Positions 2,534 through 62,649 of a stretch of DNA of 62,649 nt are shown here, in pieces. The first letter of the stretch is position 1. Each line of letters opens with the position of its first letter. The notes under the pieces are model-generated. The model was given only the letters and a program-made list of their open reading frames with translations, ran no database searches and was not told where the DNA came from. The stretch spans positions 1 through 62,649 of IMG/VR virus record IMGVR_UViG_3300017708_000776; one strand, written 5' to 3'. Made by a program: the position numbers and the translations under genes. This DNA is from a virus.

Positions 2534-3025
2534 TCAGCCTTCTGGTCTTCCTTCTTGTTCGCCTCCCGATTCATCCTCAGTATACTCTCGTAATACCTTT
2601 CTTGCTGCATCAGTATCCTCCTTTAGTTTTACTCTTCTTCTTAGATCAGATGATGAGAACCTGTGTTCTCTATTATTAAAATAAAGTTGAATGCCTAATC
2701 TACGACACTCATCCTTACCAGTAAAATCCTTGTCACGATATTCTGATCCAAGGATTCTAAGGTTTATTGGATACATCTGTATGATGTCCAACAAGTCTTC
2801 TTCGTATTGGTACACCAGTATTTCGTCCACATACTTTACTGCAGACAACTGTGCATATCGTTCTACGATGGATTGTACTGGTGAGTTTTTATCTGGTCTA
2901 TCAATAGACGGATCTATTTGCAATGCACAGATAAGATAGTCACACTGTGACTTTGCCTCTCTTAACATTGCGATATGACCTGCGTGTAGCAAGTCAAATG
3001 TAGACGCGGTTAGTCCAGTCTTCAT
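2534..3025 (-). CDS. Cytidylyltransferase-like nucleotidyltransferase
   Basis: A 163-residue protein of the nucleotidyltransferase superfamily of glycerol-3-phosphate cytidylyltransferase and the RfaE adenylyl domain. The N-terminus carries the HxGH nucleotide-binding motif (HAGH, residues 14-17) after TASTFDLL, and further down ILGSEYRDKDFTGKDEC and HRFSSSDLRRR match the ISSTxxR-like region. It would transfer a nucleotide to a sugar phosphate or polyol phosphate. Its start overlaps the stop of the 44-residue gene upstream (TAATG), placing it last in an operon with an epimerase and next to a sugar dehydrogenase. Substrate unknown. The acidic, Glu/Gly-rich tail is not needed for the fold. Confidence 0.82.
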   Translation of the reverse strand: MKTGLTASTFDLLHAGHIAMLREAKSQCDYLICALQIDPSIDRPDKNSPVQSIVERYAQLSAVKYVDEILVYQYEEDLLDIIQMYPINLRILGSEYRDKDFTGKDECRRLGIQLYFNNREHRFSSSDLRRRVKLKEDTDAARKVLREYTEDESGGEQEGRPEG

Positions 3026-3159
3026 TAGAAACCTATACCGTCTCGCATGTAGTATTGATGAAACAATGCTTCACCACCCTTGACTGTTCGTTGATACAAC
3101 TCTTCAAGACTTATGTTGTGAAACTCTGCTACTTTTTTTTCCAATTCTTCAGTTGACAT
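3025..3159 (-). CDS. 44-residue hypothetical protein
   Basis: A short frame beginning MSTEELEKKVAEFHNISLEE and ending MRDGIGF. Its ATG overlaps the end of the epimerase gene by 11 bases and its TAA overlaps the next ATG as TAATG. This end-to-end coupling is the main support for a real gene. The protein is charged and probably helical, with no membrane segment and no recognised domain. It may be an accessory subunit for the nucleotide-sugar enzymes around it, but that is only positional. Confidence 0.65.
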   Translation of the reverse strand: MSTEELEKKVAEFHNISLEELYQRTVKGGEALFHQYYMRDGIGF

Positions 3160-4105
3160 TATAATACCTCTTATACCATTCTATAAATTTTTCTACACCA
3201 ACTTCAATAGGTGTTTCTGATTTGTATCCCAATGCTTGTAACTTACTTGTATCTGACCAAGTCGCCTGCGTATCTGCAGGATGCTTCGGGACAAATTTCT
3301 TTATTGCTTTTCGTTGCAATTGAAACTCTATGTTCTCAACAAACTCCATGAGAGGAACTTGTCTACCATTACCAATATTGTATATGTCTTTCACAATCAT
3401 GGATCTCTGTATGTAATCTACAATAATGTTGATACCTTTTACAATATCATCGACATATGTGAAATCACGAATCATGTCTCCATTATTAAACAAATCAATG
3501 GACTCACCTTTTATTATTTTATTTGTAAAGTCAAATAACGCCATGTCTGGTCTACCCCAAGGCCCATATACAGTGAAGAACCGTAGACCAATCGCCGCAG
3601 GTATGTCACTTGCCATAAACTGAGATTCGTTACACAGTTTACTATAACCATATGGGTTGAGTGGATATCCGACTTTCTCATCTTCCTTCCATGGTAACTG
3701 ATTACCTGCCATGACACATGAGGTAGATGCGTATATAACTTTTTCTACTTCGTGTTCATTACATGCTTCTATCAGATTGTGAGTACCAACAATATTATTT
3801 TGAATATAATCATCTGGGAAGTCAAGTGAGTTACGCACACCTGCATACGCGGCAAGGTGTATAACTATCTCTGGTTTTTTCTCACCAAACCATTCGATCA
3901 ACTTATCTTTGTTCTTTAAGTCTAATTGATCAACTTCGATACCGTCAGTCATGTTGAGTTCTTCTGCACGTGCCTGTTTTAGTTTAGGATCGTAGTAGTC
4001 ATTGAACGAGTCAAACCCCATAACATCGTGACCCTCATCAACAAGTTTGTTTGTTAGGTGATACCCAATAAAACCTGCAATACCTGTAATAGCAATACGA
4101 GACAT
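3149..4105 (-). CDS. NAD-dependent nucleotide-sugar epimerase/dehydratase (UDP-glucuronate 4-epimerase-like)
   Basis: A 318-residue extended short-chain dehydrogenase. The dinucleotide-binding GIAGFIG lies near residues 8-14, the catalytic serine region YASTSC near 125-130 and the catalytic Y152-x3-K156 in NPYGYSKL. The FDSFNDYYDPxLK segment after the second strand is typical of UDP-glucuronate 4-epimerases, which convert UDP-glucuronate to UDP-galacturonate. This fits the dehydrogenase encoded just upstream, which could supply UDP-glucuronate. An early promoter directly precedes the gene. The exact sugar cannot be fixed from sequence; a GDP- or dTDP-sugar epimerase/dehydratase is the alternative. 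Confidence 0.87.
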   Translation of the reverse strand: MSRIAITGIAGFIGYHLTNKLVDEGHDVMGFDSFNDYYDPKLKQARAEELNMTDGIEVDQLDLKNKDKLIEWFGEKKPEIVIHLAAYAGVRNSLDFPDDYIQNNIVGTHNLIEACNEHEVEKVIYASTSCVMAGNQLPWKEDEKVGYPLNPYGYSKLCNESQFMASDIPAAIGLRFFTVYGPWGRPDMALFDFTNKIIKGESIDLFNNGDMIRDFTYVDDIVKGINIIVDYIQRSMIVKDIYNIGNGRQVPLMEFVENIEFQLQRKAIKKFVPKHPADTQATWSDTSKLQALGYKSETPIEVGVEKFIEWYKRYYNVN

Positions 4106-4123
4106 AATCTTTCCTTCTAATAT

Positions 4124-4152
4124 ATTATATCATAATTTGTTTCTAATGTAAA
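4124..4152 (-). promoter_or_regulatory. Early sigma-70-like promoter for the epimerase operon
   Basis: Minus strand: -35 TTTACA at 4147-4152, 17-bp spacer, -10 TATAAT at 4124-4129 with TGA just before it (extended -10). It overlaps the 3' end of the upstream dehydrogenase gene, so the epimerase, the 44-residue protein and the nucleotidyltransferase can be made separately from it. Confidence 0.83.
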
Positions 4153-4972
4153 CAACATTCTGTTCTTTTTCTCTATCATCTAAAACATATTCAGAACGAT
4201 ACTTATTGTTTTCTTCGATAACTAAATCAAGAAGTGAGAAGTCTCCTTCGGCAAATCTAGAGAATGCATTTGTATCCTTTGGGAAACATGCACCACCGTA
4301 ACCCTTCCTACCATCAGGGCCTGGCACTGTCATATGACTATTACCAATACGTTTATCTGTAATCAATGCATTCATCACAGCGTTATACTTGACGTTGTGT
4401 TTATCACAAAGATCTGAGAATTGGTTAAACCATAATACCTTCGATGCGAGGAAAGAGTTTATCCCATACTTGACAAACGATGCCTCTGCAGGTGTCAGGT
4501 AGTATGACCTTGTTGTTGTGTCTTTACATCTACTGTGATCTAGGTAGAATTGGTACAAGTAATGACAATGCGTTTTATCACCACCAAACACATGCATGGG
4601 TGGATTGACAAAATCTTCTAGTGCATTCTGTTCTGTGAGAAACTCTGGATTGTAAACAACCATGTTATTCTCTTCGTGTAGTTTAGTAACTATGTCTGGT
4701 GTTACTGTAGACTTAATAGCAATGACACAGTTCTTAGACTTTAATTGACCAACGACTTCTTCTACAATAGATGAGTCGATCTTACCGTCAGATCCAAAAG
4801 GTGTGGGGACACAAACAAACGCAAGATCTATCTTTACGTCTTTGATTGTCTCCATACCTTTATTGTATATCGGATCTAAAATGTATTGATTTACGCTTGA
4901 TGTATTGAATCCATACTCTACTGCCTTACCAACATAACCATGACCAACAATGGCAACATTCACTTTATCCAT
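4130..4972 (-). CDS. Short UDP-glucose/GDP-mannose dehydrogenase family protein
   Basis: NAD-dependent oxidation of a nucleotide sugar to its uronate. Visible in order: Rossmann motif VGHGYVG (about 9-15), VCVPTPFG (53-60), KSTVTP (87-92), YNPEFLTEQNALED (107-120) and the catalytic-cysteine motif GYGGACFPKDT with C229. I chose the ATG at 4972 because GGAGAGG lies 6 bases before it; the longer frame starting at 4990 has no such site. The protein is only 280 residues against roughly 390-430 for usual UDP-glucose dehydrogenases, ending about 50 residues after the catalytic cysteine, so most of the C-terminal UDP-binding domain is absent. Its product could feed the adjacent epimerase. Confidence 0.86.
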   Translation of the reverse strand: MDKVNVAIVGHGYVGKAVEYGFNTSSVNQYILDPIYNKGMETIKDVKIDLAFVCVPTPFGSDGKIDSSIVEEVVGQLKSKNCVIAIKSTVTPDIVTKLHEENNMVVYNPEFLTEQNALEDFVNPPMHVFGGDKTHCHYLYQFYLDHSRCKDTTTRSYYLTPAEASFVKYGINSFLASKVLWFNQFSDLCDKHNVKYNAVMNALITDKRIGNSHMTVPGPDGRKGYGGACFPKDTNAFSRFAEGDFSLLDLVIEENNKYRSEYVLDDREKEQNVVYIRNKL

Positions 4973-24350: not shown

Positions 24351-25829
24351 TTATGCCGCCGCACCTGAAGCACCACAAGTATATGTTGACCTATATTCTA
24401 GATCTCCAAAATCTTGACCATTACTTAGAGTATCCATAGTGATGTACTGAATTTCATTACTTCCACCATTTGTTATGCCACCAAATTTTGTACCTCTTGT
24501 TGCATTATTTGCTGACCCTGAAAAGTATTCACCATATCCATTGTTGTTTAACTGGTTTGTTAATAAATTACCAAATGCAGTTGCGTTGCTTGGAGTCTGA
24601 ATTGAAATATATTCAATTGCAGTATAGTCATTTTCTGTACGACCCCAGAATATTCCTCTATCTCCAGCTCCTACTGCAGTACCAGCTATACCAGTTCCTC
24701 CATTCCAATCACCAAAATCTTGAGCAGTTGTCATAGAAACATTAGACCAATATTGTATTTGATAATCTGATGCACCTGTGTTTCCACCACGAACAACTCT
24801 ACTATTATCTGTCACATTACCATTTTGTGCACAAGTGGTCTGCAAAGTACCAAAACTTGTGGCATCGCCTGGAGTATCTATTACAATTGTTTGAATAGTA
24901 TCGACATATCCACTGTTAGCATTTCCTCCAGAGTGGAATCCATATGCTCCTGAGTGTATTCCATCTGCTACAGAGTTTTCGGTAAGCAGATCACCACCAA
25001 AATCAGTAGCAGTAGCTGGAGTTGCTATTGTTATTATTTCTATTTCAGCATTTCTATATGTTGCTGACCTAGGCCCGCCCATGAATACTGCTTTAGTACC
25101 ATTACTTAATGCAGTATGACCACCATCTTCATGAGTTGATATCAAACCACCAAAACCTGTTGCATTACCTAGTGTTGCAATATCAAATTGACCAATGTCA
25201 GAACCAGTGCCAGACTTAATGTTACCAGCATAAACAGCCCTATCACCATACCACACACCACCACCTCCACCTGCAGGATTATATTCAATAGTTACTGCTT
25301 TGGTAAGAAAATTTACACCATCAGACCATTTAAATGTGTAGATAAAGTCTCCGTTAGAGTCTGTTAGATTACCTGCAGCGACTGCAGTTCCAATTTGAAC
25401 TTTCGTTTTTGGAGTGAATGTCCATACTGAAGAATCATTAGATATAGTTGCCATGTATTGAGCTGAGTCAGATGCAAAACTCATATTTATTATGGATGCA
25501 TCGTCCGAGTCTAAGGCCTTAGCAGTTACTACGAGAGGAGTTGCAGAATCTACAATACTATATGATGCATCTGGTTCAGTGTCCCAATACGGAGCAAAAG
25601 AACTTTGTACCATATCTATATTGTACCAACCATTACCCTCACTAAAATATAATTTTTGTCCGACTAACGCCTTAATTCCTACGGAAAGACCTGTCATAGG
25701 TAGAGAGTCTAATGTGTCATAAACAGCGACAGGAGTAGGAGTGGTTATTGCACTTATCGCCGCAGAATCTAATCCAGCAGTACCTTGTTGTTCTTGTTTA
25801 TTCTGTCTCTGATTGCTTAGTCTTGTCAT
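24351..25829 (-). CDS. Modular tail-tip protein with six-repeat kelch-like domain (paralogue 1)
   Basis: A 492-residue likely receptor-binding or fibre-tip protein. Residues 1-45 are a short anchor; about 50-185 is the module shared by six genes here (TLDSLPMTGLS, EGNGWYN, a cadherin/Ig-like SVWTFTPK...GNLTDSNGDFIYTFKWSDG). Residues about 195-492 hold six repeats of roughly 45-55 residues marked by a DFG-L-like turn and a G-G strand end (e.g. NGTKAVFMGG), closing with a C-terminal SGAAA strand. This predicts a six-bladed beta-propeller. It starts inside the previous gene by 32 bases. Confidence 0.82.
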   Translation of the reverse strand: MTRLSNQRQNKQEQQGTAGLDSAAISAITTPTPVAVYDTLDSLPMTGLSVGIKALVGQKLYFSEGNGWYNIDMVQSSFAPYWDTEPDASYSIVDSATPLVVTAKALDSDDASIINMSFASDSAQYMATISNDSSVWTFTPKTKVQIGTAVAAGNLTDSNGDFIYTFKWSDGVNFLTKAVTIEYNPAGGGGGVWYGDRAVYAGNIKSGTGSDIGQFDIATLGNATGFGGLISTHEDGGHTALSNGTKAVFMGGPRSATYRNAEIEIITIATPATATDFGGDLLTENSVADGIHSGAYGFHSGGNANSGYVDTIQTIVIDTPGDATSFGTLQTTCAQNGNVTDNSRVVRGGNTGASDYQIQYWSNVSMTTAQDFGDWNGGTGIAGTAVGAGDRGIFWGRTENDYTAIEYISIQTPSNATAFGNLLTNQLNNNGYGEYFSGSANNATRGTKFGGITNGGSNEIQYITMDTLSNGQDFGDLEYRSTYTCGASGAAA

Positions 25830-26676
25830 CTTTTCTCTCTATCAGACTCACAATATCTGTATTAGTGATGTCTGTTTTACCAAAAATACGTTCAGTTGTT
25901 TTGTCTGCCTCTTTATAGTATTTATCTGCCATTGCATCTAAAAACTCTTCAAGATGATTTGAATGTGGAATTTGTTGTTTTGAAATTAATTCGTTTACAA
26001 CTGCTATATATCCTTGTACTTCTACAAATCCCACCTGTGGATGGACACCATATTGTTGCATGTACTCAATAGTAGAAGTGCTTGCACGACCACCGTCCAT
26101 TAAATTACGATACATTAGTTCGAACGCACGTCTTACGTGGTGTTTCTTTTCTGATTCCTCAAACTCTTCTTCTGTCCAGTCTTCAACTCCAAAATTTTCT
26201 TTTAAATTATTATATGCAGTAATCAATGTTGCAATGTCTTTGAAAGAACCGTTTATCTTACTTTCCATTGACTCTATACCAACAAATGCTGCACGTAGTT
26301 TTGCCTGTGCAATTTTGTTGTCTGGTTCCAAGAATACCTTTTCTTGTAACTTGTCAATATTCTTTAATGCTTTCGCATGACTTACTTGCGCCTCTGCAAG
26401 TGCCATTTTACGTTTCTCAGTTTCCGCAAGAACTTGTCGTAACATTCTGTGAGGTGAGTGACCATTCAACATGGTCAATGACATCATTGATAATGTAGAC
26501 TGAGAGTTATTCCTATCAAAGAACTTTGTTTTCTCATCAAGTTCTGGTAGGAACTCGTTTACTAATGCAACAGCCTGTGGATTGATCTTACTCTTAGATA
26601 CTGGAGTAATTCCAAATGTTATTGGATCTGTCGCTTTTAATTCTGTACTTGTTTCTTTTTTTACTATATCACTCAT
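25798..26676 (-). CDS. Helical hypothetical protein in fibre cluster
   Basis: A 292-residue largely helical protein. Notable parts: PQAVALVNEFLPELDEKTKF, HRMLRQVLAETEKRKMALAE, and FELMYRNLMDGGRASTSTIE. Long heptad-like helices run in the middle. It is encoded between two fibre genes, is preceded by a late promoter, and overlaps the next fibre gene by 32 bases; coupling to a fibre gene suggests a fibre-assembly chaperone or attachment protein, similar in logic to T4 gp38/gp57. No family recognised. Confidence 0.68.
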   Translation of the reverse strand: MSDIVKKETSTELKATDPITFGITPVSKSKINPQAVALVNEFLPELDEKTKFFDRNNSQSTLSMMSLTMLNGHSPHRMLRQVLAETEKRKMALAEAQVSHAKALKNIDKLQEKVFLEPDNKIAQAKLRAAFVGIESMESKINGSFKDIATLITAYNNLKENFGVEDWTEEEFEESEKKHHVRRAFELMYRNLMDGGRASTSTIEYMQQYGVHPQVGFVEVQGYIAVVNELISKQQIPHSNHLEEFLDAMADKYYKEADKTTERIFGKTDITNTDIVSLIERKDDKTKQSETE

Positions 26677-26721: not shown

Positions 26722-28539
26722 TTACACTTGCCACAATACAAATTGACCTGAATTTCTATCATTTGATTGATTTTCACCTCTACCATGCTGTGTAGATAAT
26801 TGAATAGAAGATGCGTTTATATTAGCATTTGTAAAATCAGTCGCACCACTAGCAGCTGCAACATATGCCATAAATTTAGTTGTGTCCCATGTACCATCGT
26901 AGTCGTTTTCATAATCATATGAATTACCTCTACGATTTAAATTCTGCGTCCCATTTCCGATATCTCCTTGCACGATTGTGGCATAGGTTAAATCTGCATA
27001 ACCAGATCCACCACCACCTGTACCACCGTCAAATCCGCCGCCGCCTCCGCCGCCGCCTCCACCGTAGTAACCACCGCCACCACCGCCACCAGCGTCATAT
27101 TGCGAATCAGATCCTTGACCACCGTTATATAACGTACCTTGATCACCAGTTCCATGATACGAATTACTTCTAGTCGCAGCTCTACCACCTGCAGTAGTAG
27201 TTGCTCTTTCACCCAAACCGTTATTCGTGGGATTTGAATAGTTAGCACCTATACCTGCACCATCATTCCACTGCATGTATTGACCATTACTTCGTCCTCT
27301 CGCCCCATCTTGATTAAATCCACCACCACTACCACCAAAATCATTGTTTGCGGCGCCACATCCGCCACCACCACCAACAATAGCAATTGGAGTGCCAGGC
27401 GCAAAGTTTGGTGCGGTATAAGGTAATGAGAAGGAAGAATTATAAAATAATCCTGTTAGACCACCACCTGAACTAGAGAATGAGTAAGTGGCACTACTTG
27501 TATTAGTATGTGATTCTCCTCCTTGACCACCACCAAACGTTCCGCCAGGCGCAGTTCCCCCTTGGGCTGAAGGAGCAGTACCCACACCACCACCACCTGC
27601 GAATATTGTCATTGATGTGACTCCAGACGGTACTGTAACTTGTACAACCCCAGTTCCACCATTACCACCAAAAGCACTTCTATAACCAGTGCCACCGCCT
27701 CCACCTATCATTGCAATATAGAATGTTCCGCCAGGGTTAGTAGTTAAGTCCACCTTTGATCCATAATTTACACCTGATCCCACAACGTCTGTTAAACCAC
27801 CACTCCAATAAAAAGTCGTACCAGTAACAGATGATGTAAATGAACGCAAGGCCTGACCAGTAACAGAGGCACTTGACTGACCAAATGCCATTAGATCTTC
27901 AGTCAGACCGCCACCCACAGTAAACCCTACTGGAGCAGCTGCTGGACTATATGATATGGTTGCTGCTTTGGTAACAAAGTTTATACCATCTGACCACTTG
28001 AATGTGTAAACAAAATCACCATTAGAGTCAGTTAGGTTACCTGCGGCAACTTCTTGACCAATGCTATCTGCACTCTTTGGAGTAAAAGTAAATACAGATG
28101 AGTCTGACGTAATGTTTACCATATACTGCGCTGAGTCAGTTCCAATACTTTCATTTAATAAATTTATGTCTGAATTATCGGAGTCTTGTGCTTTCGCGGT
28201 AACAATCAGAGGAGTTGCAGAATCTGCAATAGAATATGTCGCATCTGGTTCTGTATACCAAGTTGGTGTCCTGTTGACAAAGGTTAAGTTATACCAACCT
28301 GTGCCGTTTGAGATATATAATCGATTGTTTTCATTTACAAACGCTTGTTGACCTGCATTCAAACTACTAGTAGGAAGACTGTCTAGTGTATCAAACACTT
28401 GAGTACCAGACGAAGTGTTGTTTCCAATACTAACAATATCTGCAGAATCTAACAAATTTACATTTGTAAGGGCAGAGTTATCAATTTCACCAGTAGGGGT
28501 GACTAACTCTGCCATTCTTCGGTTGATACTTTTTGTCAT
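26722..28539 (-). CDS. Modular tail-fibre protein with glycine-rich tip
   Basis: A 605-residue fibre protein. The N-terminal 210 residues carry the shared module (TLDSLPTSSLNAGQQAFVNE, SNGTGWYNLTFVN, then DSSVFTFTPKSADSIG). From about 215 to 550 the protein is dominated by glycine: a Gly-rich fold (FYIAMIGGGGGTGYRSAFGG, VPSGVTSMTIFAGGGG) and runs of up to ten Gly. These resemble the polyglycine sandwich tips of T-even gp38-like adhesins and Gly-rich phage tail-fibre domains. It is the odd one of the six paralogues, keeping the base but replacing the propeller. Confidence 0.83.
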   Translation of the reverse strand: MTKSINRRMAELVTPTGEIDNSALTNVNLLDSADIVSIGNNTSSGTQVFDTLDSLPTSSLNAGQQAFVNENNRLYISNGTGWYNLTFVNRTPTWYTEPDATYSIADSATPLIVTAKAQDSDNSDINLLNESIGTDSAQYMVNITSDSSVFTFTPKSADSIGQEVAAGNLTDSNGDFVYTFKWSDGINFVTKAATISYSPAAAPVGFTVGGGLTEDLMAFGQSSASVTGQALRSFTSSVTGTTFYWSGGLTDVVGSGVNYGSKVDLTTNPGGTFYIAMIGGGGGTGYRSAFGGNGGTGVVQVTVPSGVTSMTIFAGGGGVGTAPSAQGGTAPGGTFGGGQGGESHTNTSSATYSFSSSGGGLTGLFYNSSFSLPYTAPNFAPGTPIAIVGGGGGCGAANNDFGGSGGGFNQDGARGRSNGQYMQWNDGAGIGANYSNPTNNGLGERATTTAGGRAATRSNSYHGTGDQGTLYNGGQGSDSQYDAGGGGGGGYYGGGGGGGGGGFDGGTGGGGSGYADLTYATIVQGDIGNGTQNLNRRGNSYDYENDYDGTWDTTKFMAYVAAASGATDFTNANINASSIQLSTQHGRGENQSNDRNSGQFVLWQV

Positions 28540-53514: not shown

Positions 53515-54270
53515 TTATCCTATAAAAAAGTCAACGGGCATTTCATGTTCTAGTCTAATTGTCTCTCTTAACCTTTCTAACTCTGATGTACCATCATCAT
53601 ATAATTGTCTTCCATTAAATGTTACACCGCCTGGTAACTGAACCCCCTCAAACTTGATAAGGTTCATTCCCCATTGTTGTTTAAACAATGAAGTAGTGTA
53701 ATCTTTTAACCACATGTCGTTATAAATCGATGTGTGCACTTCTGGATCTACTATAGTATAGACTTCTGCAACAACATATTCACCAACCTTGACATCCTTA
53801 TCATGGAAGTCTCCGAATATGTGTAATCTATCTTGATGTCTAGACCATTGGACTTGTGGTGTTCCATTTAGTTTCATATCTAATATTGACAAGTATTGTT
53901 GCATCTGCTCGTAGTATCCCAGATCTCCTGCGAAGTTTTGCAAGTCTGCGATATCATTTAACATCATTTGATATTTAATGTCAAAGAAATTAAACGATGA
54001 GTTGAAGGAAGATGCAACTGGAAATAGTTTGGTCACAGTTAAAACATCTGAAGATATCGGAATGTATTCATTATCGACATCAGTCTGAGTAATTAAATGT
54101 TTTAAGTATGTCCTGACCGTTGCGTCTGAGTGGTACTCTTGATAGTACTGTAATGCCTCATCGACACGGTCTTCCATTTGATCTTCATCGATGTTGATCT
54201 CTAAAACTGGATCGCCAAGTCTTCTTTTGGCATAGTCTATGAGATCTTGTCTAGATGCAGGAACCGCCAT
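53515..54270 (-). CDS. gp13: Neck protein (gp13)
   Basis: Partner of gp14 in the head-tail connector. 251 residues from the ATG at 54270, with GGAG 6 bases upstream; T4 gp13 has 309. Typical are LIDYAKRRLGDPVLEINIDE, QMEDRVDEALQYYQEYHSDA, and MLNDIADLQNFAGDLGYYEQ. A late promoter lies 31 bases upstream. Confidence 0.94.
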   Translation of the reverse strand: MAVPASRQDLIDYAKRRLGDPVLEINIDEDQMEDRVDEALQYYQEYHSDATVRTYLKHLITQTDVDNEYIPISSDVLTVTKLFPVASSFNSSFNFFDIKYQMMLNDIADLQNFAGDLGYYEQMQQYLSILDMKLNGTPQVQWSRHQDRLHIFGDFHDKDVKVGEYVVAEVYTIVDPEVHTSIYNDMWLKDYTTSLFKQQWGMNLIKFEGVQLPGGVTFNGRQLYDDGTSELERLRETIRLEHEMPVDFFIG

Positions 54271-54301
54271 AATAGTCTCCAAAAACTAAATTATTTGGTA
54301 C

Positions 54302-54309
54302 TATTTATA
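54302..54309 (-). promoter_or_regulatory. T4-type late promoter TATAAATA for gp13-gp14
   Basis: Exact TATAAATA on the minus strand, in the 56-base gap between the propeller paralogue and gp13. No other signal is seen in that gap. Confidence 0.78.
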
Positions 54310-54326: not shown

Positions 54327-55880
54327 TTATGCGGCATTTCCAGAGGATGCAACCCCACTTGCTGATTTGTAAGGTAATTCACCAAAATCAGTGGCATTAC
54401 CTGTGGTTTGTATTGTCACATATTCAATATCAACATCGTTCTGACCCCCAATACAAAGAGCGTATGTTCCATCTGACGCAGCACCCATTCTCCCATTTCC
54501 TGAAATTAAATTTCCAAAAGAATTTGCATCTGATAGGGTTTGTGTTACATTATATGTTATTATAGTCTTGCTTGAATTACCACCAAAGGTAATACCTCTT
54601 GTAGAATCAGAACACGATGCATGATCACTTTCGTGTGAGTGAGTACCAGTGAATGAGGTTGCATTACCTATTGTCTGAGTTGTAAGATATTTTATAGAAC
54701 CAGAACTACCCCCATGATACATTACACTACGAGTCGCATCATTCCATGCAGAGGCTGAATTTGTCGCAGAAGCATAATATCCAAATATTGCTGCATTTCC
54801 AGTGGTATCTATAACAATATATTCAATATCTGTAGTGTTACCCTGATTTGCGCGATATCCACCCCATTGTAATCCATAAATACTATCGCCTGTTCCAGCT
54901 GCTTGGTAGGTAGTGTAGTATAATGTCCTATTAAAACTATCTTGACCAGTTGCATAATAAAGTGGTAAACCAAAAGTTGAACTATTTCCAAGTGTTGCAG
55001 TTGTCACATATTGAATAGTTCTACTTCCCCACCAAGGCCAGAGATCTCGATTTCCACCCCAGAAAATAGCCCTTGTGCCATTAGATATATTACCAGTAAC
55101 ATCGTCTTTGGCACGATTTAAGTTACCAAAATCTGAGGAGTTGCCTGGAGTAGTGATGTCGTTGTATACTATATCATTAACCACGGCATTATAATTAGAT
55201 CCGTTACCATTATAATCTGATTTGGTATAACCAATGTGATGAACTGATCTAGTACCACCCCAAGCAATTCCTGTAGGCCCTGCAGTACTATATGAAATAG
55301 TTACGTCTTTGGAAACAACGTTGATACCGTCATTCCATCTAAAAGTGTAAATAAATTCACCACTAGAATCTTCTAGGTTACCTGCAGCGACTGCATCTCC
55401 TATTTGATCAGCAGTCTTAGGAGTAAAAGTCCATACAGAAGAATCGTTAGTAATAGTAACCAAGTATTGGGCACTGTCTGTAACGACACTTGTATCCACT
55501 AATACATCTGAGTCAACATCAGTTGCAAGTGCAGTTATAGTTAAGGGTGTCACAGAATCTGAAATGGTGTAAGTTGCATTTGGTTCTGTAACCCATGTTG
55601 GGCCTGCAGTGTTTAGATTTGTGTCTGCATTGTACCAACCAGATCCATCAGAAATGTAAAGTCTACCTATACTATCACTAATTTTTACAAGTGCTTTTTG
55701 ACCTTCAGACAATCCAGTGGTAGGTAAACTATCTAAACTATTAAGATATATCACAGATCCAGATACATTTGAAGTAATAATTGTTTCTACTTCACTCGAA
55801 TCAAAAGAATCAATCTTAGAACTCTTTACTTCTCCTTGAGCATTTATTAGATCTGCTATTCTTCTACCAAAACTTTTCAT
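54327..55880 (-). CDS. Modular tail-tip protein with six-repeat kelch-like domain (paralogue 2)
   Basis: 517 residues. N-terminal anchor SFGRRIADLINAQGEVKSS; the shared module runs about 45-205 (YLNSLDSLPTTGLSEGQKAL, DGSGWYNADTN, then DSSVWTFTPKTADQIG); then six repeats with the turn markers DFGNL, TFGLP, IFGYY, SFTGT, SFGNL and DFGEL, each ending in a G-G or similar strand (e.g. NGTRAIFWGGN). The closing SGNAA C-terminus returns to the first strand. Most likely a receptor-binding tip or adhesin. It overlaps the next paralogue by 4 bases. Confidence 0.82.
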   Translation of the reverse strand: MKSFGRRIADLINAQGEVKSSKIDSFDSSEVETIITSNVSGSVIYLNSLDSLPTTGLSEGQKALVKISDSIGRLYISDGSGWYNADTNLNTAGPTWVTEPNATYTISDSVTPLTITALATDVDSDVLVDTSVVTDSAQYLVTITNDSSVWTFTPKTADQIGDAVAAGNLEDSSGEFIYTFRWNDGINVVSKDVTISYSTAGPTGIAWGGTRSVHHIGYTKSDYNGNGSNYNAVVNDIVYNDITTPGNSSDFGNLNRAKDDVTGNISNGTRAIFWGGNRDLWPWWGSRTIQYVTTATLGNSSTFGLPLYYATGQDSFNRTLYYTTYQAAGTGDSIYGLQWGGYRANQGNTTDIEYIVIDTTGNAAIFGYYASATNSASAWNDATRSVMYHGGSSGSIKYLTTQTIGNATSFTGTHSHESDHASCSDSTRGITFGGNSSKTIITYNVTQTLSDANSFGNLISGNGRMGAASDGTYALCIGGQNDVDIEYVTIQTTGNATDFGELPYKSASGVASSGNAA

Positions 55881-57529
55881 GAGGCATTTCCAGAAGATGC
55901 CTGACCAACTCTGTGACCATATATTAGGTCTGCAAAATCAACAGCGTTGCCTGGAGTTGAGACCGTTATTCTTTCTATATAGTTTGTTATAGTACTCCAT
56001 GAACCTAGAAGAGGATTACTATTGTTTGTTGTGCCTCCTGACATGGTTACATAAGTTCCATCACCTGCACCACATGAGGTTCTTCGATTCCAAACCAAAT
56101 TACCAAAGGTAGTCGCCTCTCCTGTACTAGACATATTCAAACGATCTATTTCATCAGAAATATCTGTAACTATAGTTGAACCACTAATATAATTATAGTG
56201 TCTACCTCCTGCTATTATAAGGTAAGTCGCATCACCACATACAACTGGATCACTCGTATAGCTATGTACCGTATCACCATTTGCATTAGTGTTATTGATT
56301 TCACCAAATGACACACAATCGGATGTAGTATCAAATGTGTAATACCATATTTTTTGTTTGTCTGCACCACTCGCAGTATCGTTTGTCGCAACTATTAATG
56401 CTCTCTCAGAATTATTCCATGCACGTGCACTATACAGTTGTTGACCCATTGGTGCTTGATATGTCGCATCTCCTGTGGTGTCTACCGTTACTTGTTGTAA
56501 ACCTTGAGTAGATCCATATTGCACTCCACCACTATAGGCCCAACCACCACCCATAATTGCTTTAGTCCCATCACATGCTGCGAATACTCCTGCACCCATA
56601 TAACCTGCAGATGGTACGATCATATTACCGAATTGAGCACTGTTACTTGGAACTGCAGTTGTATGATATTTAATATCATCAGTTCCTGTAAATGATGCAC
56701 CCATCTTCTCACCACCACATGTTAAAACTCTAGTACTGTTACTGCATGTACCAAATGAAGTAGTGCCTCTAGAACCAAAAACATTAAGATCTCCAAAATC
56801 TTGAGCGGTGCTAGCTGTACTTATTGAATAGTAAGTTATGTATGTTTCACCGTTATTTCCATTAGGACTCGAACCACTAAGAGCAGCGTTAGAATAATAT
56901 CCACCCATAGTCAAAGCTCTATCACCACCCCATTCAAATGGTAACGCAGATGGACTATATGAAATAGTTACTGCTTTAGAAATAACATTAACACCGTCTG
57001 ACCATTTAAAAGTATAGATAAAGTCACCATTAGAGTCCGTTAAGTTGCCTGCAGCGACTGCATCCCCTATTTGTGTTTTTGTTTTAGGCGTAAAAGTCCA
57101 CACAGATGAATCGTTGGATATGGTTGCCATGTATTGAGCTGAGTCAGATACAAAACTTTGATTAATTAAATTTGGATTATCTGAGTCTAAAGCAAGTGCA
57201 GTTATAACAAGAGGAGTGACAGAGTCTGCAATCGTATAAGTTTCATCTGGTTCACTATTCCAGTAAGGTGAAGAACTAATTACATATCCTGTATTATACC
57301 AACCAGATCCATTCGATATATAATGTTTTTTATTCTCTTCTACAAATGCTTGGAGACCTATGGATAGATTTGTCGTAGGAAGAGAATCCAGTGTTTCAAA
57401 ATATTGCATTGGAATTGATTGGACTGCACTGGAATCTAAACCACCTGCAACAAACTTTAATCTATTGTTACCAGTATTGTCAATCTCCGTAGCACGAAGC
57501 ATTGTGACAATGTCCAATGATCTACTCAT
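55877..57529 (-). CDS. Modular tail-tip protein with six-repeat kelch-like domain (paralogue 3)
   Basis: About 550 residues from the ATG at 57529, which shares TAATG with the previous paralogue's stop; a longer frame starting at 57556 is less likely. Anchor MSRSLDIVTMLRATEIDNTG resembles paralogue 4. Shared module (ETLDSLPTTNLSIGLQAFVE, SNGSGWYNTGYV, then SVWTFTPKTKTQIGDAVA). Six repeats with DFGDL, QFGNM, TYQAP, SFGEI, TFGNL and DFADL, and insertions of different lengths between strands. Ends with ASSGNAS. Confidence 0.82.
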   Translation of the reverse strand: MSRSLDIVTMLRATEIDNTGNNRLKFVAGGLDSSAVQSIPMQYFETLDSLPTTNLSIGLQAFVEENKKHYISNGSGWYNTGYVISSSPYWNSEPDETYTIADSVTPLVITALALDSDNPNLINQSFVSDSAQYMATISNDSSVWTFTPKTKTQIGDAVAAGNLTDSNGDFIYTFKWSDGVNVISKAVTISYSPSALPFEWGGDRALTMGGYYSNAALSGSSPNGNNGETYITYYSISTASTAQDFGDLNVFGSRGTTSFGTCSNSTRVLTCGGEKMGASFTGTDDIKYHTTAVPSNSAQFGNMIVPSAGYMGAGVFAACDGTKAIMGGGWAYSGGVQYGSTQGLQQVTVDTTGDATYQAPMGQQLYSARAWNNSERALIVATNDTASGADKQKIWYYTFDTTSDCVSFGEINNTNANGDTVHSYTSDPVVCGDATYLIIAGGRHYNYISGSTIVTDISDEIDRLNMSSTGEATTFGNLVWNRRTSCGAGDGTYVTMSGGTTNNSNPLLGSWSTITNYIERITVSTPGNAVDFADLIYGHRVGQASSGNAS

Positions 57530-59031
57530 TATGCGGCGTTTCCTGATACAGCACAACCATATCTTCTAGCAAAATCTAAATCACCATGATCAGTAGCATT
57601 ACCTGAACTAGACATACTCCAACGATCTATTACATCATATGTAGTTCCGCTTCCTGCCCACGGGTTCTCACCCCCAACTGCTACACCATAATCTTTATTT
57701 CCTGTCACACCATGACTTTGTCTTTGAACTGTTAAATCTCCATAGTAAGTTGCATTTTGATTTGTATCTAATGTAAATTCTTCTATATGATCTCCATAAC
57801 CTGTATTATTTTCACCACCTGCTGTTGTACACTTAGAAGAAATTCCATGACCACCCAGATATCTACGAGCAAATGTTAAATCTCCAAAATCAGTTGCATT
57901 ACCAGTTGTATCAATTGTGATTCTATCAATATTATTGAGACCAGCTGGTGCTTGACCACCACATATACCCATATACGTACCATCAGAAACACCAGAACCA
58001 TGTTCCCTTGATTGTGCCAAGGTTCCAAAATTTACAGCATGGGCAGCTGGATCAATAGTTACATATTCAATACCATTCCAACCTTGTCCAACATCATTTG
58101 GTGGATTTCCTCCACCTGCAATAATACCTCTAGTATTATTACTTGCGTTTGCAGTACCAAAATTATTTCTTGTCATATCACCAAAATCTGCGGCATTTCC
58201 TAATGTGGCAGATGAAACATAGAATATAACATTTCCACCGCCTGATCCACCAGTAAATAGTTGTTTTTCGCCATTTGAAATATTAGCACTCATATAATAT
58301 AAATTATATGGAAAATCGCCAAAATCTGAAGCGTCACTTGCTGTTGTAATGTCAAAGTAATCTATTTGATTATTCCCTTGGAATGTGGAAAGTCCTCTAT
58401 CACCACCCCAATTAAAAACACCACCTCCACCGCCTGCAGGATTATAAGTAATAGTTACTGCCTTGGTGACAAAATTTATTCCATCAGACCATTTAAACGT
58501 ATAGATAAAATCTCCGTTAGAATCAGTTAGGTTACCTGCCGCAACTTCTATACCTATAGAGTCTGCACTTTTTGGAGTAAATGTCCATACCGAAGAATCA
58601 TTAGATATGTTGACCATGTACTGTGCGGAATCAGTCGCAACACTCTGGTTTAGTAAGTTGATGTCTGAGTTGTCTGAGTCAGTTGCTTTAGCAGTGATTA
58701 ATAAAGGAGTTGCTGAATCTACAATATCATATTCTGCATCTGGTTCTCCACCAGAATCCCAATTAGGTGTCGCATTTATCAACGCAACGTTGAACCATCC
58801 AGATCCATTTGACATATACAATCTGTTTGTTCCAGAAACATATGCTTGTTGACCTGCTTCCAAATTAGTCATAGGTAAAGAATCTAATGTAGAAAAATGT
58901 TCTAAACCAATATTTTGTACTTGTGCAGAATCGACACCTGCAGGAGAACTGGTGTTCAATAGAACTAGGTTTGAAGTGTTATCTACTTCTGTCTTAGATA
59001 GTATTGTTGCTATGTCTCTTGATCTACCCAT
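57529..59031 (-). CDS. Modular tail-tip protein with six-repeat kelch-like domain (paralogue 4)
   Basis: 500 residues. Anchor MGRSRDIATILSKTEVDNTS; shared module STLDSLPMTNLEAGQQAYVS, SNGSGWFNVALIN, DSSVWTFTPKSADSIG. The six repeats are the most regular of the family: DFGDF, DFGDM, NFGTL, DFGDL, YYGDL, DHGDL, three followed by an F/Q-ARR or QRQ stretch. A poly-Gly hinge (PAGGGGGVFNWGGDRG) joins module and propeller. Ends with AVSGNAA and is coupled to both neighbours. Confidence 0.83.
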   Translation of the reverse strand: MGRSRDIATILSKTEVDNTSNLVLLNTSSPAGVDSAQVQNIGLEHFSTLDSLPMTNLEAGQQAYVSGTNRLYMSNGSGWFNVALINATPNWDSGGEPDAEYDIVDSATPLLITAKATDSDNSDINLLNQSVATDSAQYMVNISNDSSVWTFTPKSADSIGIEVAAGNLTDSNGDFIYTFKWSDGINFVTKAVTITYNPAGGGGGVFNWGGDRGLSTFQGNNQIDYFDITTASDASDFGDFPYNLYYMSANISNGEKQLFTGGSGGGNVIFYVSSATLGNAADFGDMTRNNFGTANASNNTRGIIAGGGNPPNDVGQGWNGIEYVTIDPAAHAVNFGTLAQSREHGSGVSDGTYMGICGGQAPAGLNNIDRITIDTTGNATDFGDLTFARRYLGGHGISSKCTTAGGENNTGYGDHIEEFTLDTNQNATYYGDLTVQRQSHGVTGNKDYGVAVGGENPWAGSGTTYDVIDRWSMSSSGNATDHGDLDFARRYGCAVSGNAA

Positions 59032-60656
59032 TATGCACTCCCACCAGATACTGCAGATCCAGCCATTCTGGAAATTGTTAGTTCTCCGAATAAAATTGCA
59101 TTGCCTGGCGTACTCATTGTTACTTCTTGGATTTCATTAGTATCCGCATTACTACCAGTTCTAGTAGTTCTACCGCCAGCAAAGTGTGCTTTTGTTCCAT
59201 TTGCAGTGGCACTTGTAAATGACTCACCGCCTGGTGAACCACCTGCAAAACCACCTCTTAGATCTCCAAAGTCTGAAGCATTGCCTGGTGATGATACTGT
59301 TATATACTCAATTCTTTCAGAAATAGTACCGCCTTGATAATTACTACTACTTATTGGTGTGCCAATATCAGTGCCACCCATGAATAATGCAATATCACCT
59401 CCACCTGTACCTGCAGCTGCAAGAAAGAGTTTAGCACTCATTAGGTTTCCAAAATCATAAGCATTTGTATTATTCGCAACAACGTGATAATCTATTCTGT
59501 CATAATAGTTATACATAAGTCCGCCACCCACCGAACTGTGTTGGAAATAATATCCACCACCGATTACCATCGTAGTGCCATTTGAAGCTGCAGCTGCATA
59601 TGATCTCGCAAGAGAAAGATTTCCTTGAGTGGTACTGTTACCTGTAGTTGCAATAGTCACATATTCCATAGTGGCAAAATCTTTGTTTGTATTTGCCATG
59701 TTAGAGTATGCGAGTGTTCCTCCTCCTGCAGCGACTGCATAAGTACCATCACCTTCAACTGCAGGAGCGCTTGTTCTTCTAGGAAGGGTTCCAAACTGTG
59801 ATGAATTACCTAGAGTTGCACATGTAAAATAGTACGTTTCATCTAAACCACTACCTGCATAAGTGTCACCGTGTGCTGTCGCATCGCCATTTCCACCCAT
59901 TATAACTGCTCTAGTGTTGTTAGATGCCGCACCACCATAAGTTATTTTACCAGGCGAGATATCACCAAATTTGGATGCATTGCCCGATGTAACCATATCC
60001 CAATAATCTACATCTGTATAATCTGATCCGTTGGTTCCAGATATATAAAGTGCACGATTTCCATAGAATGTACCTTCTGGAGGCGCAACTGCACCGCCGG
60101 GACTATATCCAATAGTTACTGCTTTAGAAACAAAACTAATACCATCTGACCACTTGAATGTATAAACAAAGTCACCATTGGAGTCTGTTAGATTACCTGC
60201 CGCAACAAATGCACCTATTTGACTTGCGGTCTTTGGCGTAAATGTCCATACGGATGAATCAACTGTAATATCGACCATGTATTGCGCTGAGTCACTTACA
60301 ATACTTTGGTTCAGTAAACCCTTATCAGGATTATCAGAGTCTGTTGCAAGTGCAGTAATTACTAGTGGAGTTGCTGAATCCGCAATGTCATATGTAGCAT
60401 CTGGTTCTGTTGCCCATGTAGGTGATCTATTGACTAATGTTGTATTATACCAACCAGAACCATCTGAAATATAAAGTCTGTTAGTATTTTTAATAAACGC
60501 CTCATCACCTTCAGATAAACCTGTCATGGGTAATGAGTCAAGTGCATCGAAAACCTGAAGTGCGGTTCCTGTAATGTTTAGTATATCTGCAGAGTCTAAA
60601 CCAGCTGTACCTTGCTGTTCTTCGACTGCGAATCTTATAGTACTAAGTTTTACCAT
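59031..60656 (-). CDS. Modular tail-tip protein with six-repeat kelch-like domain (paralogue 5)
   Basis: 541 residues. Its N-terminus STIRFAVEEQQGTAGLDSAD is close to that of paralogue 1 (EQQGTAGLDSAAI), 35 kb away. Shared module with DALDSLPMTGLSEGDEAFIK, DGSGWYNTTLVN and DSSVWTFTPKTASQIG. Repeats marked by KFGDI, QFGTL, TQGNL, DFGNL, DFGDL and LFGEL; ends SAVSGGSA. Encoded one base from the VYLNG-repeat gene. Same predicted fold and role as the other paralogues. Confidence 0.82.
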   Translation of the reverse strand: MVKLSTIRFAVEEQQGTAGLDSADILNITGTALQVFDALDSLPMTGLSEGDEAFIKNTNRLYISDGSGWYNTTLVNRSPTWATEPDATYDIADSATPLVITALATDSDNPDKGLLNQSIVSDSAQYMVDITVDSSVWTFTPKTASQIGAFVAAGNLTDSNGDFVYTFKWSDGISFVSKAVTIGYSPGGAVAPPEGTFYGNRALYISGTNGSDYTDVDYWDMVTSGNASKFGDISPGKITYGGAASNNTRAVIMGGNGDATAHGDTYAGSGLDETYYFTCATLGNSSQFGTLPRRTSAPAVEGDGTYAVAAGGGTLAYSNMANTNKDFATMEYVTIATTGNSTTQGNLSLARSYAAAASNGTTMVIGGGYYFQHSSVGGGLMYNYYDRIDYHVVANNTNAYDFGNLMSAKLFLAAAGTGGGDIALFMGGTDIGTPISSSNYQGGTISERIEYITVSSPGNASDFGDLRGGFAGGSPGGESFTSATANGTKAHFAGGRTTRTGSNADTNEIQEVTMSTPGNAILFGELTISRMAGSAVSGGSA

Positions 60657-60657
60657 A

Positions 60658-62649
60658 TTAGTTCTCTATTAGTATCCAACCATTTGTGGCGTTATAGTAC
60701 ACAAGACCTATACCTGCACGATCAATGTCTATTACCAGATCGGTTTCACTACCTTGTATCTTATGTCCGTTTCTATTTATTGTTATGTTGTTAGTCGATG
60801 CATTACCAGTTCCATCTAAAATTCTTACCTCATCACCAAAATTTGCATTTAAAGGTAATGTTAGAGTTTGGGAAACACTAGAAGTATCAACAATGTTTCT
60901 AGAACCAGATGTTATTGGTGTAGCTGTAGTTCTTTCTACCCAAGTTCTAGGATTTGTTGCAAGTCTTGTTGTTATAATACCTTGTGCTTCTGCGGCATCA
61001 ATACCAATATTGTTACCAGTCAACTTGGTAATTGTCAAGTTGTCTCCTACATCGGCAGCATCATTCAAGGTTAATACAGAACCTGAACTATCTTTGAAAT
61101 CCTCAGTTCTTAGTAATAAACCATTTAAATATACATTGACTAATCCAGTAGAATATGATAATGTTTGACCATTTATATCCGTACCACTAAAGTGTGATTG
61201 ACCAGCAGTAGCAGTATATTCAAATGTATCGAATGTAAGAGGTGTCGCAACAGAACTTAGATCTGCAGGCATGAATGTAGAAATTTTTACTTCATCCGAA
61301 GCAGACACTGGTGTATTAAAGGTTACTCTATTTCCATCTGTGGCAACATAATCCACAGAGTCTACAAGAGCGATACCATTTAAATATACAACCAACCCTG
61401 ATTGTTGATATAGAAGTGCTTCACCATACCTATCATCACCACTGAATATTGTTTGACCGTGGTCTGCAACGAAATCAAATGTCTTACCAGAGAACTCTTG
61501 TGCATTGAATGTTTGTATTATAATTTCATCTGTAACAATTGCTGAGTCTGTTAAGATTATTTTATTTCCAAGTGTAGTAATATAATCTGTACGTTCATCT
61601 AACAACACATCATTTTTGAATACCTGAACACCACCACTAAAACCTAATCCATTACCAGTCAGAGTTTTTCCTGCGTGACCTGCAAAATGAAATTGTTTTG
61701 TGTTTAGACTTGATGCAACGTTTGCGGATGTAACCACAACACTCATAAAGTCTGCAGAGTCTGCGGCCTCTAATAAGGTTACGGTTGAATTTGTTTTTGT
61801 GTAGTCGTTTGTCTCCGATAGTAAGATACCGTTTAAGTAAACCTGTATAGCACCAGTAGTCAGATCTAATGTTCTACCGTTGTTATCTGTACCTGAGAAT
61901 ACTGTATCTCCAGAGTCTGCAGTAAATTCAAATGATGTTTCATTTAAAGTCTGTCTAGAATTGACACGACCAATTGTTTCTATTATAGTAACTGAATAAC
62001 CACTATCCAAAGCATCAGAAAATGTTATTCTGTCTGTGAGTAGAGCGTAATCTGTTGTTTCTTCTTGAAGGACACCGTTTAGATAAACTTCTGCATTTGA
62101 AGGATCTATTGAAAGTGTAGAACCAAACTTGTCATCACCTTGGAATAAAACTTGACCTGCAGTTGCGTCAAAGAAGAACTTATTAACTTCTAGTGTACCA
62201 CGAGCATTTACAGAAGTTCTTGCTTGTACATAGTCACTATCTATTATACTAACGATGTTTGCAGAATCTACTGTACCAGATCCACCACCGCTACCACCAC
62301 TTGGAGGTGTGTACTTGATGATTTGTACTACGTCATTTAATGTAGCTGCGGCAGTCAATGTGACTGTAGAAGAATCCGTCAATGTGAAATCGTCTGAGTC
62401 TACTAAGAGGATACCATTCAAATAGACGTTTATCTGTGTGTCTGAATCGTCATACGACAGTATATTACCATTCGCATCAGAGTCTGTAAATGCTAACTGA
62501 CCTGAGTCTGCAGTGTATACGAACTTAGTAAGAGTGATACCGTCTGCAGTAGAATGACTACCACCTCCTCCAGATCCACCTGTATTGGTTGATGGATTGA
62601 ATGTTAAGACACCAGTACTATTGTCATATGCAAGAGCACCACCACCAGA
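60658..62649 (-). CDS. VYLNG-repeat tail-fibre protein, 5' end outside window
   Basis: The frame is open to base 62649, so the start lies beyond the window; 663 residues are visible. It contains at least six copies of a unit of roughly 70-85 residues built as F-x-F-TA-x-xGQ-x-x-FSG-D-x-x-G, then VYLNGILL-x-E-x-x-DY, then a strand pair (e.g. GAIQVYLNGILLSETNDYT and NAEVYLNGVLQEETTDYALL). An IDSDYVQAR element and Gly/Ser linkers (PPSGGSGGGSGTVDS) occur near the visible N-terminal part. The end folds as FNGH-like GNASTNNITINRNGHKIQGS, a common phage-fibre C-terminal motif. Likely a long fibre shaft. Confidence 0.8.
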   Translation of the reverse strand, partial: SGGGALAYDNSTGVLTFNPSTNTGGSGGGGSHSTADGITLTKFVYTADSGQLAFTDSDANGNILSYDDSDTQINVYLNGILLVDSDDFTLTDSSTVTLTAAATLNDVVQIIKYTPPSGGSGGGSGTVDSANIVSIIDSDYVQARTSVNARGTLEVNKFFFDATAGQVLFQGDDKFGSTLSIDPSNAEVYLNGVLQEETTDYALLTDRITFSDALDSGYSVTIIETIGRVNSRQTLNETSFEFTADSGDTVFSGTDNNGRTLDLTTGAIQVYLNGILLSETNDYTKTNSTVTLLEAADSADFMSVVVTSANVASSLNTKQFHFAGHAGKTLTGNGLGFSGGVQVFKNDVLLDERTDYITTLGNKIILTDSAIVTDEIIIQTFNAQEFSGKTFDFVADHGQTIFSGDDRYGEALLYQQSGLVVYLNGIALVDSVDYVATDGNRVTFNTPVSASDEVKISTFMPADLSSVATPLTFDTFEYTATAGQSHFSGTDINGQTLSYSTGLVNVYLNGLLLRTEDFKDSSGSVLTLNDAADVGDNLTITKLTGNNIGIDAAEAQGIITTRLATNPRTWVERTTATPITSGSRNIVDTSSVSQTLTLPLNANFGDEVRILDGTGNASTNNITINRNGHKIQGSETDLVIDIDRAGIGLVYYNATNGWILIEN

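Follow-up and report, generated by a model that had tools for sequence, protein, structure and literature searches.

A tandem array of predicted six-bladed kelch-type proteins in a T4-like marine phage, a probable receptor-binding repertoire

Four adjacent genes of a T4-like marine phage, together with a fifth copy about 29 kb away, encode proteins in which a conserved N-terminal module is followed by a C-terminal domain predicted to form a closed six-bladed propeller of the kelch type. We consider it likely that this array is a modular receptor-binding repertoire, with six-bladed tips carried on slot-specific anchors and attended by a helical partner protein. The combination of a conserved stem with a replaceable propeller tip suggests an interchangeable kit for host-cell recognition.

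Organisation of the array

The window, by which we mean the whole stretch of DNA analysed, corresponds to a 62,649-base virus record in IMG/VR and carries T4-like genes for the head, the tail and replication (portal, protease, major head protein, sheath, tube, terminase, gp3, gp13, gp14, uvsY, uvsW and DNA polymerase). Along the minus strand the order at the array is G, D, C, B, A, gp14, gp13. The features discussed here are the following:

Gene A, 54327..55880, minus strand: N-terminal module (residues 1-204) and predicted six-repeat kelch-type propeller (205-517)
Gene B, 55877..57529, minus strand: N-terminal module and predicted six-repeat propeller
Gene C, 57529..59031, minus strand: N-terminal module (1-205) and predicted six-repeat propeller (206-500); the domain that was modelled
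Gene D, 59031..60656, minus strand: N-terminal module and predicted six-repeat propeller with long loops
Gene E, 24351..25829, minus strand: fifth, distant kelch-type paralogue, adjoining uvsY
Gene F, 26722..28539, minus strand: same N-terminal module, glycine-rich tip, no kelch repeats
g25798, 25798..26676, minus strand: all-helical protein of 292 amino acids linked to kelch-type genes; probable helper
Gene G, 60658..62649, minus strand: tail-fibre protein upstream of the array, cut by the window edge
gp14 (neck), 53515..54282, minus strand: conserved flank of the array, 98% identical in L064, L093 and L112
TATAAATA, 54302..54309, minus strand: putative T4 late-promoter-like site upstream of gp14

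The initial annotation of this DNA had described five reading frames with a common N-terminal module and C-terminal domain (genes A to E), the adjacent ones separated by junctions of four bases or less. All five are present on the minus strand as listed, and neighbouring copies overlap by 1-4 bases (TAATG at D/C and at C/B, ATGA at B/A), stop/start overlaps along D-C-B-A that make translational coupling likely. Genes G and D lie 1 base apart, and the true start of gene B is probably the ATG at 57529 and not the TTG at 57556. Genes E and F are situated 26-36 kb from the array, between a virion structural protein of 1899 residues and uvsY. The N-terminal module of about 200 residues is common to six proteins, A to F (50-70% identity to the module of F), and the C-terminal repeat domain is found in five of the six, the tip of gene F, which the initial annotation had overlooked as a member, being glycine-rich instead. 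Over their full length, the five kelch-type proteins are about 38-41% identical in pairwise comparison. As side observations, the glycine-rich tip of gene F gives a weak match to the ALK/LTK glycine-rich domain, and in L064 the homologue of gene G spans at least 1483 residues.

Six-fold repeats, predicted fold and variable face

Repeats were counted with a hidden Markov model (HMM) rebuilt from distant contigs only, free of any window sequence. With it, genes A to E gave exactly six repeats apiece, bearing out the six-fold count made from the sequence at first, and genes F and G gave none; one qualifying match was obtained among 500 shuffled domains, and a first version of the model had returned identical counts. 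In a set of 125 complete and mutually non-identical proteins, drawn from the window and from 54 related viral contigs, 118 have 6, 12 or 18 repeats (66, 50 and 2 proteins, respectively; seven exceptions), and the same holds for 6 or 12 repeats in 120 of 133 proteins from other loci (6 in 116, 12 in 4, and 3-5 in the remaining 13). The spacing of repeats in the 12- and 18-repeat proteins is about 48 residues; it rises to 60-77 behind the sixth repeat and to 60 behind the twelfth. Counts in sixes, and the wider gap that follows the sixth repeat, point to a unit that is closed at six, which an open solenoid would not explain.

Several of the odd counts (1, 3-5, 7, 9 and 11) belong to split or truncated reading frames or to weak repeats that escaped detection. 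At L012:3050-4289 a kelch-type gene is split over two overlapping reading frames, which could stem from a frameshift or an assembly error or mean that the gene is broken. At the other extreme, a protein of 923 residues with 18 kelch-type repeats (L029:4825-7593 and L031:2440-5208) apparently comprises three six-bladed rings in one chain.

The initial annotation had proposed a six-bladed propeller closed by its last strand, to be examined by structure prediction. AlphaFold2 was run on the C-terminal domain of gene C, one of the five domains, with an alignment of 104 sequences, and the resulting model agrees with that proposal: a closed six-bladed ring of 24 strands (pLDDT 92.1, pTM 0.90). The N-terminal strands of the domain form strands b-c-d of blade one in this model, while strand a comes from the C-terminal strand (CAVS), so that the ring would be closed by pairing of the last strand of the chain with the first three. 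The best structural matches in the PDB are kelch domains, namely those of KLHL12, Keap1 and Plasmodium kelch and the designed six-fold SAKe proteins, mostly with TM scores of 0.80-0.90 at 11-15% identity. Viral matches comprise the 'kelch-motif' protein of Burkholderia phage BcepSaruman, S-SKS1, and 'virion structural' proteins of phiPA3, Noxifer and Phabio; poxvirus kelch proteins are also among them.

Like the kelch propellers of Keap1, KLHL12 and KLHL3, the phage domains are predicted to have six four-stranded blades, with Gly-Gly after strand b (present in the consensus of each repeat) and BC/DA loops on one face (TM 0.80-0.90). They differ from these proteins in that identity is 11-14%, the Tyr-x6-Trp pair that follows Gly-Gly in kelch repeats is absent (consensus I-x-Y-x-T-I-x-x-x-G-N-A-x-D-F-G-D-L, without Trp), and Pfam kelch models hardly match. 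Pfam searches with the five proteins gave no match, the curated kelch profiles matched 3 of the 104 domains weakly (Kelch_1, best E 0.0025) and none of the five, and a PDB sequence search with the alignment returned no kelch protein. The fold assignment thus rests on structure prediction rather than on sequence, and we place the domains with the kelch-type fold but outside the kelch motif family. With this qualification, the tips of five of the six proteins are predicted to be closed six-bladed kelch-type propellers.

The BC and DA loops of a four-stranded propeller share one face, which is the ligand face in Keap1. Across the 104 domains, the length of AB loops (at 2-3 residues) and of CD loops (at 7-8 residues) is nearly constant and that of BC loops varies between 2 and 22 residues; sequence entropy peaks in the DA loops. 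Variation is therefore concentrated on one face, the kelch ligand face. We infer that this BC/DA face, being the most variable in length and sequence, binds a ligand on the host surface.

Conserved putative anchors and exchanged tips

Close relatives of the N-terminal modules are found in the corresponding slots of other phages, at 95% identity for A (L093, L064), 78% for B (L087), 83% for C (L064), 68% for D (L087), 81% for E (L075) and 90% for F (L071). The modules of A, B, C, E and F are clearly closer to these relatives than to their window neighbours (53-70%); that of D is not clearly closer, at 68% to its orthologues against 70% to gene F of the window. The tip domains are only about 28-36% identical to one another within the window, and those of A and C reach 53-61% with proteins of other phages (53-57% for the A tip with L093 and L064). 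These values bear on whether the four neighbouring copies are products of a recent tandem duplication that diverged in situ, as the initial annotation had supposed. Although the copies are adjacent, translationally coupled and of the same architecture, the tips of A and C are closer to those of other phages than to each other, the modules of A, B, C and E are 78-95% identical to the same slot elsewhere against 53-67% to window neighbours, and DNA identity between copies (60-82%) is confined to the N-terminal modules. Recent duplication has consequently been rejected on these three grounds, and we give it almost no credence.

What is seen instead is replacement of tips on standing anchors. N-terminal modules up to 99% identical carry tips that are 49% identical or unrelated, and among 70 module pairs of at least 75% identity, which are not independent of one another, the tips are unrelated in 20 and below 50% identity in 32. 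Identity falls steeply at about residue 200, from about 95-100% to 30-85% for gene A, and from 50-100% to mostly below 35% for the other genes. L064 keeps the order G-D-C-B-A-gp14-gp13, with gp14 and gp13 98.4% and 98.9% identical to those of the window, yet three slots have different tips: D is glycine-rich, C of an unknown type and B an FG-GAP domain, and A is kelch-type. Slot B is also non-kelch in L087 and L093. Slot E is conserved in L075, L095, L104 and L126, and slot F bears a kelch-type tip in L071/L072, beside a 97.6% identical copy of the 1899-residue protein. Other tips found on this anchor are LamG lectin, FG-GAP and glycine-rich domains.

The glycine-rich tip of gene F shares 85% identity with the tip of L087|2588-4351, a protein whose N-terminal module is in turn 84% identical to the one in slot D of L064; judged from this F-like tip on a D-slot-like module, tips appear to move between slots. 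A conserved N-terminal module with an exchanged C-terminal domain, as seen here, is a feature of phage receptor-binding proteins. Each module would fix its protein to a particular place in the virion and stay there while the tip is replaced near residue 200 between phages, whereby specificity could change with the mount unchanged.

The position of the array points in the same direction. In pelagimyophages, the host recognition cluster lies between VrlC and gp14, and is likewise a hypervariable island that stops at gp14 and contains tail-fibre and carbohydrate-binding proteins (PMC7029224). The array abuts gp14 and has variable tips between flanks that are 97-99% identical, as expected of a hypervariable island; its flank opposite gp14 is the tail-fibre gene G, open at the window edge. 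The receptor-binding reading is favoured because anchors are kept, tips change and the site, adjoining gp14, matches that of the published cluster. Kelch or propeller domains are not mentioned in that paper (PMC7029224). The multicopy tip repertoire suggested earlier is thus supported, and it sits in a host-recognition region.

Two other roles have to be weighed against receptor binding. The proteins might decorate the head or tail-sheath surface, where propellers would bind surfaces or glycans weakly or merely stabilise the particle; phage CBB has a kelch-type virion protein and also unexplained tail whiskers (PMC5259590). We regard this as unlikely, since the array lies downstream of a tail-fibre gene and adjoins gp14 within the host recognition cluster, and since the tips are exchanged and vary on the ligand face. 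Less probable still are intracellular kelch-type adaptors, at work within the host cell like the poxvirus kelch proteins: this fold widely serves as a platform for protein-protein interaction and the poxvirus proteins match structurally, but the phage genes are coupled to structural genes and exchanged like adhesins, and their N-terminal module is shared with LamG and glycine-rich proteins.

The probable helical partner, phage distribution and known systems

A further gene, g25798, came to notice because its relatives, at about 20-25% identity, are repeatedly found next to kelch-type genes in another group of phages, where a neighbouring gene resembles a gene of the podoviruses HTVC023P and HTVC027P. 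In loci chosen by the N-terminal module only, the helper and kelch-type genes occur together in 12 (all of the helper loci), kelch-type genes alone in 19 and neither in 47 (Fisher p about 3e-6). New loci chosen by the helper only contain kelch-type genes in 62 of 78 cases; the remaining 16 mostly begin no more than a few hundred bases from the helper or represent distant homologues. Of 80 loci selected by the portal gene, 1 has kelch-type genes and 0 have the helper, a base rate rather than a matched control since the portal is farther from the arrays. In site-ii relatives, L111 among them, the kelch-type genes have no helper nearby. By gene neighbourhood, then, g25798 nearly always flanks kelch-type genes, also in podovirus-like contigs. 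Its model is all-helical (pLDDT 81), with no significant structural match in Foldseek and a PHROG match to a family of no known function. It is probably a dedicated partner that assembles or mounts the kelch-type proteins, as a chaperone, mount or linker.

Searches of isolated phages by tblastn gave no match with genes C and D; with a podovirus-type relative they gave S-SKS1 alone, the closest isolate obtained. 2OG-Fe(II) oxygenase genes lie near the kelch-like gene of S-SKS1 (L063, NC_020851) and in the tail region of HTVC023P (L141). A single scan of bacterial genome contigs with one relative gave three matches (L300, L301 and L302, in Epulopiscium, Porticoccaceae and Nomurabacteria assemblies), possibly phage contigs within those assemblies; a wide presence in bacteria is unlikely given this count from one relative. 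Unrelated marine phages, T4-like myoviruses and HTVC023P-related podovirus-like phages, may share a transferable cassette of six-unit propellers and the helical partner needed to fold or mount them, and in the T4-like phages the propellers would be one type among several exchangeable tips borne by slot-specific anchors; we hold the arguments for and against this wider proposal to be evenly balanced.

Phage receptor-binding propellers are not new, nor is the presence of several kelch proteins in a single phage. Beta-propellers occur in the known or putative receptor-binding proteins phi11 Gp45, PRD1 P2 and phiKZ gp131C (PMC4901313), which have five, distorted five and seven blades, respectively, and are encoded by single genes, not tandem arrays. 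Phage CBB likewise has three kelch-type propeller proteins (CBB_550, 552 and 554), one of them found in virions; they are recognised by kelch database models, unlike the window family, and neither anchor-plus-tip exchange nor a helper is described in the portion of that report drawn on here (PMC5259590). Kelch repeats are also reported to be enriched in long-read marine viral data (PMC9238414). The earlier suggestion that multicopy kelch-like phage propellers are an undescribed system was accordingly overstated. A search of the open-access literature gave no report of the present motif-divergent family, its six-fold rule, its exchangeable tips on slot-specific anchors or its helper.

The receptors of most marine phages are unknown, and a fold and probable ligand face can now be proposed for an extensive phage family. 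PHROG families 19111 and 26444, neither with an assigned function, are matched by 66 and 73 of the 104 domains, respectively, and both a fold and a role are proposed for them here. With the anchor separated from the tip by a visible exchange boundary, and a probable partner protein named, host-specificity exchange in uncultured phages becomes open to anchor/tip bookkeeping across metagenomes.

A minor observation concerns transcription. The motif TATAAATA occurs 11 times in the window against about 5 expected, 10 of the 11 copies being on the minus strand, and its sites include 26704, 34594, 39165, 46875 and 54302. Several lie just 5′ of structural genes, and the motif itself suggests a T4 late-promoter-like element.
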